Assembly (NCBI GenBank): GCA_903844775.1
Contig: CAIMUZ010000006.1
Location: forward strand, 1 to 32,344
DNA: 32,344 nucleotides
Reading direction: 5' to 3'
Source: an uncultured Burkholderiales bacterium
GTDB lineage: Bacteria; Pseudomonadota; Gammaproteobacteria; Burkholderiales; Burkholderiaceae_C
The notes beneath the pieces were generated by a model. The model was not told the origin of the DNA. It saw nothing but the letters and a program-made list of their open reading frames with translations, and searched no databases. Made by a program: the position numbers and the translations under genes. Shown in pieces: positions 10,789 through 13,683 of this stretch; the stretch's first letter is position 1; each line of letters starts with the position of its first letter.

Positions 10789-11775
10789 TCAATGATAACG
10801 TTGTACAGACCTGATGAGTGCTTCAAATTCAATCCAAAAAGCCTGTTCAGGTTCAAAAATCAGAGGGACTGCGATGGCATTGGGATATTGAGCCCAAAGT
10901 TTGACGGCGTCCTTTTCTGTGCAAAGCAGGCTGAGATTGGGTTGCTTCGGTGCCCAAGATGAAAAGTCGTGATGGTCTGGCAGCGCTGTTGCAACTTGAA
11001 TGCGGATGTTGGCATCTTCAAGCATCTTGATAAATGCTTGGGGCTTCGCAATTCCTGAAACAACTTCGACTGGTAGGCCTGCCAATTGATTGAGCGGCGA
11101 GAGTTGGCCATCTTTGGAGATTAATGTCTGACCAAGTTCCCGCTTAGATTCAAAACCTTCTGTAAACGTCCGCGTTTGGGTGTGGAGCAACAAATCGCAT
11201 TGCCGTGGCCAAGCTTCTCTTAACGGTCCTGCAGGAAGAAGATGGCCATTGCCAATGCCCATGGCGTCCATGACACAAATTTCAATGTCACGCTTGAGTG
11301 ATAAATGTTGGAGACCATCATCACAGATCAGAAATTGCGTATCTGGAAATTGTCTAAGCAGTTGCGTCGCTGCCTCAACCCTGTTTGCACTGACCACCAC
11401 GGGAACCTTGCATTTCTGAAAGATAAGCAGGGGCTCATCTCCCACCTCATGAGGCAAGCTTTGCGCATTGACAAATTGAAGCGCCTTGCTTTTCCGTCCA
11501 TACCCCCGAGAGACAACGCCCACTTTGTGTCCTTGATCAAGGAGCCTTTGAACAATGGCCAGGGTCAGTGGGGTTTTGCCACCCCCGCCAACAACCACGT
11601 TGCCAACCACAATGACAGTTGCATTGACGCTGTAACTTTTGAACAAGCCCGTTGCATACAGGACTTGACGAACGAAAAGTGCAAATCTGTACAAACACTC
11701 GATCGGCCACAACAAATAAGTCACTGCATTGGTTGATTGCCAATAGCTTGGAAGTCGTTGAAGCCAGCGATTCAT
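10789..11775 (-). CDS. lpxK: tetraacyldisaccharide 4'-kinase (lipid A 4'-kinase)
   Basis: This 328-aa enzyme phosphorylates the 4' position of the tetraacyldisaccharide precursor of lipid A at the inner face of the cytoplasmic membrane. The Walker A motif is GGGGKTP (about 63-69), preceded by VIVVGNVVVG; the conserved CDDGLQH follows at mid-protein. The N-terminal region carries a hydrophobic helix (about 18-40) as usual for membrane association. The ATG at 11775 lies 8 bp after the stop of the exbB-exbD remnant, with no strong Shine-Dalgarno. Its translation may therefore depend on coupling to that short ORF. Confidence 0.96.
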   Translation of the reverse strand: MNRWLQRLPSYWQSTNAVTYLLWPIECLYRFALFVRQVLYATGLFKSYSVNATVIVVGNVVVGGGGKTPLTLAIVQRLLDQGHKVGVVSRGYGRKSKALQFVNAQSLPHEVGDEPLLIFQKCKVPVVVSANRVEAATQLLRQFPDTQFLICDDGLQHLSLKRDIEICVMDAMGIGNGHLLPAGPLREAWPRQCDLLLHTQTRTFTEGFESKRELGQTLISKDGQLSPLNQLAGLPVEVVSGIAKPQAFIKMLEDANIRIQVATALPDHHDFSSWAPKQPNLSLLCTEKDAVKLWAQYPNAIAVPLIFEPEQAFWIEFEALIRSVQRYH

Positions 11776-11783
11776 TTTGTGAC

Positions 11784-12062
11784 TTAAGGTTTAGCGAGCT
11801 GAACGAGGATGGCTTGCTGCGTGGCAAAAGCAATTTTGGTAATGCCGTTAAAGCTTGCTGCTTCCAGCACATTGACAACAGCTGGATGGCTTGTAATGGC
11901 GTCAGCTTTGATCAGGAGTGTGCCATCTTCCTTGTCGAAACCCACTAAAGCTTCACGCAAATTTTGCGTGCGCCTGCCCTCCAGTTGGCTGCCATAGGCA
12001 TAAACTGAGCAGGCGATCAAAGGCCAAATTGGCCAGCCCGCGGCTTGTATGATGCTTAGCAA
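11784..12062 (-). pseudogene. exbB-exbD deletion fusion (remnant of TonB-energising proteins)
   Basis: This 92-codon frame joins two different genes. Residues 1-20 (MLSIIQAAGWPIWPLIACSV) match the N-terminus of ExbB/TolQ-type proteins of Burkholderiales. From residue 21, YAYGSQLEGR through LLIKADAITSHPAVVNVLEA to ITKIAFATQQ matches the periplasmic C-terminal part of ExbD. Intact ExbB has about 200 residues and three membrane helices; ExbD has about 140 with one. Nearly all of ExbB and the membrane half of ExbD are missing, implying a deletion of roughly 0.7-0.9 kb with its junction near 12000-12006. The frame stays open. The start would be TTG. The position just upstream of lpxK is where exbB-exbD normally stand in this group. 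An assembly error is the alternative to a real deletion. Confidence 0.82.
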
Positions 12063-12378
12063 AATGAATCTTTCTACTTCTGGTTTCAGTTTTGATTATG
12101 TCTGATCGAATTGTTCGCCATTTCTGTGGATAACTTTGTGAAGAACTTGACTGGAACGGGACGCTAGACCGCATGAATATTGGGTATGGGTTCAGTGCTT
12201 GTTATTTAGTCATGAAATAATTCAATAAAATCAAAGGCTTATGATGTTGTATGCGGATGCATGATGCAAAGTAGGGGCGAATGGCCAGATTTCTTCAATC
12301 TGTGGACTCTTTGAACCGCAAAGCACAAGGCTTAGCATCAATAATGGCTTTGAAAACCGCAAAAAATAAGGCAATTGA
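12063..12378. other. 316-bp divergent intergenic region, exbB remnant / xseA
   Basis: There is no gene here. It should hold the promoters for the exbB-lpxK operon (minus) and xseA (plus). I see no clear -35/-10 pair or hairpin. It contains a perfect single DnaA-box match, TGTGGATAA at 12125-12133, and A/T-rich stretches at 12200-12232. A minus-strand ORF covering its right half and the start of xseA (12231-12473) shows no family resemblance and is not called. Confidence 0.6.
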
Positions 12379-13683
12379 ATGGCGCGCTTAGATACTGAGC
12401 CACGTATTTGGTCTGTTGGGGCACTTTGCCTTGCAATTGCAGACACTTTGAATACAAGGTTCAACCCTGTCACTGTTAAGGGTGAGCTTTCAGGCTTTTC
12501 CCGCGCGGCCAGCGGGCATTGTTATTTCAATCTCAAGGACGACAGCGGTCAAATTCGCTGCGCTATGTTCAAAAGGGCCGCCAGTGCTGTGGGCTTGATG
12601 CCCAGAGATGGTGACATGGTGGAAGTTCGCGGAAGGTTGGGCGTCTATGAAGCGCGCGGTGATTTGCAACTCGTTGTCGAGTCCATGCAAAGGGCGGGTC
12701 AAGGTGATTTGTTTGCCCAGTTTTTAAAGCTCAAGGCCACGCTGGAATCAGTGGGGCTTTTTAACCCCAGCCGAAAACAAGAGATCCCCTCCCAGCCTCG
12801 GGCTATTGGGGTGATCACTTCATTGGGCGCTGCTGCCTTGCATGATGTTGCGACGGCTTTGCAACGGCGTGTACCGCACATTCCTGTTATTTTGGCCCCA
12901 GCTTCGGTGCAGGGCGCCAATGCCCCACTTGAGTTGCTTCGAAGCTTGAACAGCCTCGTGTCATGGCAATCCGACGGCTTGACCCAAAGGTTGTCCAGCC
13001 CCAGCGCACCATTGGCCGTTGACGTCATTTTGATGGTGCGAGGTGGGGGGTCAATGGAAGACCTTTGGGCCTTTAATGACGAGGCCCTGGTCAGGGCTGT
13101 GGCCGCATGTCCCATCCCAATCATTGCGGGAGTGGGGCACGAAACTGATTTCACACTGATTGACTTTGTTGCGGATTTGCGGGCCCCTACGCCTACAGCC
13201 GCTGCAGAATTGGTCGCCGCAGAGCGTGGTCAGCTTCTCAGTGATTTGTCACTCATGCAAGAGTCCCTTTCTGATTCTTTAACCCACGTGTTGGACCGCA
13301 TGAGTCAAAGACTTGATTGGCTGGGCAATCGACTGGGCCGTCCTTCTGGAAGAATCAGTGACCAAAAATCGAGCTTGTCTCGGATGGGTCAGGCTCTGCA
13401 GTTTGGACTCAAATCGCAGTTACAACGACAAAAACAAAATTTGGCCAGAACTGCAGACAGCTTGCCAAGGGCGCTTCAATCTCAGGTTCAGAGTCAACAA
13501 CAGTTGATTCACAACATGCACACAAGATTGGGTCTTCTCGACCCGCACCTGGTGTTAGAGAGGGGATACGCTTGGTTGACAGATGATTCTGGACAAGCAC
13601 TGACCCATGCCGAAGAGTTCAAGTCCTCACAGTCAGTCACTGCGACTTTGGCGGACGGGCAGGTGAAATTGCAAGTGAAATAA
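12379..13683 (+). CDS. xseA: exodeoxyribonuclease VII large subunit
   Basis: This 434-aa catalytic subunit of ExoVII degrades single-stranded DNA and, with XseB, acts in repair. The N-terminal OB-fold DNA-binding domain (about 8-105) contains VKGELSGF and the conserved GHCYFNLKD. The catalytic domain follows, with VITSLGAAALHD, RGGGSMEDLWAFNDE and GVGHETDFTL. The C-terminal part is a long coiled-coil helix region rich in Gln and Ser (about 275-385), and the end, LERGYAWL onward, closes the fold. Length is normal. An AAGG eight bases before the ATG supports the start. No xseB is in the window. Confidence 0.97.
   Translation: MARLDTEPRIWSVGALCLAIADTLNTRFNPVTVKGELSGFSRAASGHCYFNLKDDSGQIRCAMFKRAASAVGLMPRDGDMVEVRGRLGVYEARGDLQLVVESMQRAGQGDLFAQFLKLKATLESVGLFNPSRKQEIPSQPRAIGVITSLGAAALHDVATALQRRVPHIPVILAPASVQGANAPLELLRSLNSLVSWQSDGLTQRLSSPSAPLAVDVILMVRGGGSMEDLWAFNDEALVRAVAACPIPIIAGVGHETDFTLIDFVADLRAPTPTAAAELVAAERGQLLSDLSLMQESLSDSLTHVLDRMSQRLDWLGNRLGRPSGRISDQKSSLSRMGQALQFGLKSQLQRQKQNLARTADSLPRALQSQVQSQQQLIHNMHTRLGLLDPHLVLERGYAWLTDDSGQALTHAEEFKSSQSVTATLADGQVKLQVK

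Follow-up and report, generated by a model that had tools for sequence, protein, structure and literature searches.

Directly before lpxK in an uncultured Burkholderiales bacterium lies a short open reading frame that begins like ExbB and ends like ExbD. It raises the question of whether such a frame is a dead remnant, a small protein in its own right, or a stretch kept open for the gene that follows it. We take lpxK to be essential and to encode the lipid A kinase. A preliminary description of the locus, made from the sequence alone, had proposed that a large deletion collapsed exbB and exbD into one in-frame fusion. Here, we examined the locus in its 32,344-nucleotide contig (the window, meaning the whole stretch of DNA analyzed) and in relatives of the genome that carries it (G000). 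G007 served as the main intact reference, and we infer that the genus of G000 and its relatives is Limnohabitans (Comamonadaceae).

RESULTS

The frame joins the start of exbB to the end of exbD

Alignment to the intact proteins of G007 assigned fusion residues 1 to 22 to ExbB residues 1 to 22 (95% identity) and fusion residues 24 to 92 to ExbD residues 74 to 142 (67% identity), close to the 20 ExbB and about 70 ExbD codons first estimated. The proposed collapse itself was borne out by intact copies in the nearest relatives, and the TTG start, the preserved frame of 92 codons, and the lack of an internal stop were all as described. The Pfam ExbD profile (PF02472) matched the fusion at 27.7 bits against a cutoff of 25.4, over profile positions 74 to 127 of 128 only. 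Genus-level hidden Markov models (HMMs) detected both genes in the single frame, ExbB at 41.7 bits and ExbD at 66.6 bits, against backgrounds of 8.4 and 6.7 bits, respectively (the best of 50 shuffles per gap over 21 gaps). Because both halves align to the relatives' intact ExbB and ExbD, a conserved but unrelated family of 92 amino acids was ruled out. At the fusion locus, there was no match to PF01618 (ExbB/TolQ), just the first 22 exbB codons being left of a three-helix protein. The N-terminal 73 residues of ExbD are missing from the fusion, and with them the membrane helix (FIDVLLV) whose conserved Asp is present in the intact relatives aligned. This Asp has a role in proton use.

The G007 DNA alignment runs from the xseA side into exbB, ends near codon 20, and restarts in exbD 8 bases farther on in the query (Table 1). 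The lost stretch corresponds to 804 bases of G007. Five-base overlaps were clearer at the junctions of two other genomes, CCAAT in G053 and GCCGC in G088. These short overlaps, together with TATGC in the window, fit a deletion between very short direct repeats, which is probably how the fusion arose.

Table 1. Features of the xseA-lpxK region, in window coordinates
Feature	Position	Strand	Basis or remark
exbB'-'exbD fusion ORF	11784..12062	-	92 codons, TTG start, without internal stop
exbB codons 1-22, first part of first membrane helix	11997..12062	-	95% identity to G007 ExbB 1-22 and DNA alignment to G007
exbD last 69 codons, C-terminal part of periplasmic domain	11787..11993	-	67% identity to G007 ExbD 74-142; PF02472 positions 74-127
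Deletion junction, approximate	11994..11999	-	TATGC, short overlap common to exbB and exbD sides, by eye; G007 alignment ends 8 nt apart
lpxK	10789..11775	-	8 nt 3' of fusion stop; PF02606, 292.8 bits; without Shine-Dalgarno tetramer
xseA	12379..13683	+	divergent neighbor; locus anchor
CATCATACAAGCCGC, nucleotide-level conserved exbB start	12040..12054	-	pattern without other site in G000
CATAAT, -10-like hexamer upstream of exbB/remnant	12095..12100	-	[CG]ATAAT in 20/20 loci (19 exbBD-less loci and G000)
TCACAAAGTTATCCACA, DnaA-box-like element, xseA/exbB intergenic	12125..12141	-	once per genome, here, in 16/20 genomes

exbB-exbD was lost repeatedly within one genus

To place the deletion, we surveyed the locus in the family and in the genus. 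The family survey comprised 60 genomes (59 besides G000), with LpxK found in 58 of those 59; in the 30 best LpxK loci, all from other genera, ExbD stood directly upstream of lpxK in 30 of 30. We therefore take the pair to be ancestral and to have been lost in this genus. Among 90 genus genomes searched, lpxK was found in 87, and the locus was examined in those 87. The pair is kept at 63 loci (G032, G060, and G064 being counted as intact from pieces on two contigs) and not kept at 21, and 3 loci are cut by contig ends (G048, G051, and G081), giving 84 decidable genomes. The 21 nonintact loci comprise 19 without a full exbB or exbD, the fusion of G000, and a broken locus in G083. The distance from xseA to lpxK is bimodal, 1386 to 1468 bp at intact loci versus 379 to 469 bp at lost ones, with 604 bp in G000 and 958 bp in G083. 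The nearest relatives of G000 have an intact exbB-exbD-lpxK order.

A tree of XseA plus LpxK from 86 genomes, built by a quick method, takes at least 7 changes between the intact and nonintact states, and if loss is irreversible, we read 8 separate losses from it. Five are single-genome losses (G000, G053, G088, G083, and G071, whose sister G074 is intact), and three are shared by clades, namely B5 (G056, G077, G078, G080, and G082), A4 (G004, G038, G052, and G073), and C7 (G005, G029, G033, G037, G041, G065, and G084). Forcing G053 and G088 into one clade was rejected (p 3.5e-10), as was forcing the three fusions of G000, G053, and G088 together (p 7.7e-34), both groups having been chosen with the tree already in view. 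How G083, G071, and B5 separate is less sure because it depends on G074 and on an open fork that includes a long branch. Our literature search returned no title or abstract beginning about loss of lpxK-linked exbBD and no paper on the function of the lpxK-linked ExbB/ExbD of the Comamonadaceae. As a side observation, G011 has two lpxK-exbBD loci (G011:C8 and G011:C124); this genome is flagged as 9% contaminated and is probably a mixed bin.

Recognizable remnants keep the frame up to lpxK

Both ends of the former gene pair are still recognizable in five remnants, and the frame is kept in 5/5. G000 retains 22 exbB and 69 exbD codons; G053 retains 12 exbB codons (LLGIIQAAGWPI) and an exbD tail of 28; G088 retains 8 (LLSIIQAA) and 21; G071 retains 7 (LLTIIQA) and 10; and G083 joins the first 11 to the last 29 codons of exbD. 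Both ends were seen by HMMs in G000 and G053 only. For G088, the exbD end scored 17.3 bits and the exbB end 1.4 bits, the latter resting on alignment to sister DNA; for G071, the HMMs saw neither end, and both rest on sister DNA alignment, which covers 40 nt on the right; and for G083, the start of exbD was identified by eye. The exbB of G083 has an in-frame internal deletion followed by a frameshift (L182, 2935-3484). Five in-frame events would occur by chance 1 time in 243, a pattern that was noticed after the fact.

Additionally, the remnant frames end close to lpxK. Their stops lie 8 nt (G000), 10 nt (G053), 10 nt (G088), and 8 nt (G071) before it, and that of G083 overlaps lpxK by 1 base. 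In the wrong frames, the first stops would fall 169 to 177 nt before lpxK in G000, 20 to 69 nt in G053, and 65 to 69 nt in G088. The remnants other than that of G000 range from 17 to 49 codons, according to which start is picked, and have little ExbD left. At the more fully deleted loci, clade A4 has no frame of at least 12 codons ending near lpxK (0/4), and in clade B5, 3/5 have a frame that can be started, passes through the former exbB start, and ends near lpxK. In clade C7, 6/7 loci (L161, L163, L164, L166, L172, and L180) carry a frame of 21 to 33 codons with the peptide FSHF that overlaps the lpxK start, its stop lying 0 or 9 nt into lpxK; in the seventh genome, G029, this frame has no stop near the lpxK start and continues. 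The FSHF codons differ synonymously among loci. As a homologue of ExbB or ExbD, the C7 mini-ORF was ruled out, with no HMM match above shuffles.

The preliminary description had offered, among its readings, a dead remnant and an ORF kept to couple translation to lpxK. Since four other lineages left in-frame remnants before lpxK, these two in combination fit best, the coupling being the conditional part.

lpxK lies at the end of the upstream frame

We next considered how lpxK might be translated. Of 63 intact genomes, 8 have a Shine-Dalgarno tetramer before lpxK, close to the 10% seen in shuffled sequence, and none precedes it in the window, while exbB has one in 39 of 62 genomes. The TTG start of the fusion has none of the six tetramers, and the Trm112 and kdsB genes of the window lack them as well; thus, lpxK is not exceptional in lacking one. 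At intact loci, the distance of the exbD stop from lpxK ranges from -3 to +25 nt (62 of 62). Among 80 named loci, which include a few same-genus genomes, it lies within -10 to +30 nt in 52 of the 68 that were usable. Genes translated by re-initiation usually start near the preceding stop. An exbD stop adjoining an lpxK without a Shine-Dalgarno signal suggests that lpxK depends on ribosomes arriving from upstream. The fusion shows two features of a coupled upstream ORF, a stop 8 nt before lpxK and an lpxK without a tetramer. In this, it resembles translationally coupled upstream or leader ORFs, short frames that end before a gene without a Shine-Dalgarno signal, but it differs from them in that its frame comes from a deleted gene pair.

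Nucleotide elements persist around the exbB start

Conservation of exbB codons 4 to 6 (ATC ATA CAA) extends to the nucleotide sequence even though ATA is rare (L080-L159). The 80 named loci contain 76 complete exbB genes, of which 69 have ATA as codon 5 and 74 have CAA as codon 6, compared with 3.3% ATA and 40% CAA elsewhere in those genes; in the genus, codon 5 is ATA in 46/61, versus 5.7% elsewhere. ATG is never used as the exbB start, neither among the 69 distinct starts of the named loci (TTG in 65 and GTG in 4) nor in the genus set (TTG in 46/46). Part of the motif is left where exbB is gone, namely CATCATACAAG in all five genomes of B5 and CATCATACCCAGC in all four of A4; neither occurs in the seven C7 genomes. 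We take the motif as a putative signal at the RNA or DNA level. It was rejected as a regulon site: a search of 40 of the 90 genus genomes with a longer version of the CATCATACAAG pattern found 25 sites, spread over 24 genomes (G011 having two such loci), all at an exbB start or remnant, and no exact match in the other 16.

Farther upstream, the DnaA-box-like TTATNCACA is present in 80 of 82 intergenic regions between xseA and exbB or lpxK, with CACAAAGTTATCCACA exact in 73 of 82; the search for TCACAAAGTTATCCACA (Table 1) covered 20 of the 90 genomes. A consensus scan found no sigma-70 promoter. Separately, the exbB 5' leaders of G074 (L242) and G083 (L182) contain a AAAGCAATCTGATTGCTTTTGTG stem-loop with a T-rich tail that looks terminator-like by eye.

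The remnant shows mild relaxation

Of 26 columns without variation across the other near genomes, the ExbD part of the fusion alters 4, whereas each of 21 intact near genomes breaks 0 to 2 of them and the more distant G054 breaks 7. Its mean identity residual, relative to XseA plus LpxK, is -0.085, compared with -0.051 to +0.063 for the 21 intact genomes and -0.081 for G054. A rate comparison had been suggested in the preliminary description. Over the 69 exbD codons, pN/pS to the three nearest relatives is 0.25 to 0.30, versus 0.12 to 0.20 among those relatives (synonymous sites being near saturation). To four more distant genomes, the fusion (0.39 to 0.49) hardly differs from its relatives (0.33 to 0.48). 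Judged by these comparisons, relaxation appears mild, which means that the deletion is probably young or that some constraint remains. In G053, the 28-codon tail is separated from six sisters by 9 to 12 nonsynonymous changes, compared with 0 to 3 between those sisters, and its frame is still open. A structure model of the fusion, built from nine sequences, had low confidence (mean pLDDT, 45.8).

Other energizer genes remain in the genome

The preliminary description held that the deletion implies loss of a TonB-energizing pair. The fusion's source, the lpxK-linked ExbB/ExbD (PF01618/PF02472) of the Comamonadaceae, supplied both of its ends and occupies the same place before lpxK, but the fusion is shorter by about 800 bases and has no channel-forming helix complete. 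TonB-ExbB-ExbD and TolQ-TolR belong to the same superfamily, and solved ExbD and TolR chains (6 distinct sequences) match the ExbD of an intact relative. However, the intact pair of G007 falls below every NCBIfam equivalog cutoff for TolQ, TolR, ExbB, and ExbD; its ExbB scores 86.8 of 221 bits for TolQ and 46 of 206.2 for ExbB, and its ExbD scores 76.6 of 127.3 for TolR and 47 of 123.45 for ExbD_2. The label "TonB-energizing" is thus not supported for the lpxK-linked pair, and the fusion matched no NCBIfam equivalog. In one published source (PMC6461280), lpxK and a tonB-exbB-exbD set appear apart from each other.

A wider search of the genome for such genes and for TonB-dependent receptors had been proposed. 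In G000, contig C231 has a TolQ above its cutoff (286 of 221) and a TolR-like protein just below (124.3 of 127.3); a second ExbBD-type pair (C40) and a contig-edge ExbD (C202) both lie below all cutoffs; and there are 8 TonB-dependent receptors. A clear tonB was not found in this 77.8% complete genome, in which the TonB C-terminal domain appeared weakly, below cutoff, in a TolA-looking frame; tonB may lie in the missing part. With other ExbBD/TolQR-type genes and 8 receptors present, loss of TonB energizing does not follow from the deletion. Equally, with no gene above an ExbB or ExbD cutoff and no clear tonB, intact TonB energizing is not established. Relocation of the lpxK-linked pair within G000, an incomplete genome, was rejected, since the other candidates were a TolQR with ybgC, a dapB-side pair, a glk-side ExbD, and two MotA proteins, the neighbor labels ybgC, dapB, and glk being read from translations.

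DISCUSSION

We favor, with some confidence, the reading that the fusion is a dead exbBD relic whose frame stays open because the ribosomes that translate lpxK come from the upstream frame. That the frame is a relic is well supported; that it couples translation is moderately so. A deletion, probably between very short direct repeats, removed about 800 bases of the lpxK-linked pair and, with them, the channel-forming parts, ExbB helices 2 and 3 (by the helix count that we assume for ExbB) and the ExbD membrane helix. Without these helices, the fusion would no longer work as an energizer. If the locus is expressed as we propose, ribosomes would load at the exbB start, finish shortly before lpxK, and re-initiate on it. 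A deletion that leaves the exbB start and the exbD stop in one frame would then be tolerated, since lpxK would still be fed from the exbB start, and out-of-frame deletions would stop ribosomes farther upstream. The event itself is an ordinary one, gene loss leaving an in-frame relic; the setting is unusual, in that it recurs in one genus with frames that run up to an essential gene.

Whether the deletion is real had to be weighed, because the window is an entire contig from a draft assembly that has 235 contigs and is 77.8% complete, and most ExbD residues are retained in the fusion, as could be expected if an intact exbB-exbD had been collapsed or chimerically joined in assembly or binning. 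We consider this very unlikely. In three relatives (G007, G089, and G075), the longest exact word common to exbB and exbD is 9 bases, which makes it unlikely that a repeat as long as an assembly k-mer caused a collapse. Gene order is the same as in G007:C4:240000-279999 across window positions 1 to 31951, the extent of the G007 stretch used, and exbB/exbD is the sole gene lesion that we noticed. The altered invariant ExbD positions set the fusion apart from the 21 intact near genomes (although not from G054), and the pair is also absent from other genomes, some in about 3 (G037) and 20 (G004) contigs. Highly improbable, in our judgment, is a small membrane protein that functions with a partial ExbD periplasmic domain, a reading that the preliminary description had also entertained. 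An open frame, a hydrophobic start, a PF02472 match above cutoff, and a pN/pS still well below 1 speak for such a protein, but it would lack ExbD residues 1 to 73, the membrane helix among them; its model is poor, albeit from only nine sequences; 4 of its 26 invariant positions are altered; and the parallel remnants hold little ExbD. Helix 1 of ExbB is normally oriented N-out/C-in, which would place the ExbD part on the cytoplasmic side.

A plain decaying pseudogene, its frame kept by luck and its ORF maintained by nothing, is a serious if rather unlikely alternative. Losses are frequent across the genus (21 of 84 decidable genomes), and the fully deleted clade A4 does without an upstream frame of at least 12 codons near lpxK. 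The mildly diverged remnant of the window may be recent and not yet broken, and genes of this operon often lack Shine-Dalgarno signals. Luck alone, however, would have to account for a frame kept in every recognizable remnant, for the preserved spacing to lpxK, and for the G053 remnant, which is strongly diverged in protein and yet open.

ExbD stood before lpxK in every other-genus locus examined, 30 of 30, yet the pair was lost about 8 times in one freshwater genus, and these repeated losses open the role of the lpxK-linked ExbBD to comparative study. We suggest, tentatively and as a possibility that we rate below even chances, that exbB-exbD has eroded repeatedly in this genus into short translated leader frames of lpxK. 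An energizer operon would thereby have turned into the cis-regulatory leader of an essential gene, in which selection sees the path of the ribosome and the ATC ATA CAA element and not the proteins. The genus offers a natural deletion series for asking whether translational coupling steers the decay of operon genes. If the coupling is true, short frames annotated as "hypothetical proteins" ahead of essential genes may be relics retained to keep ribosomes flowing.
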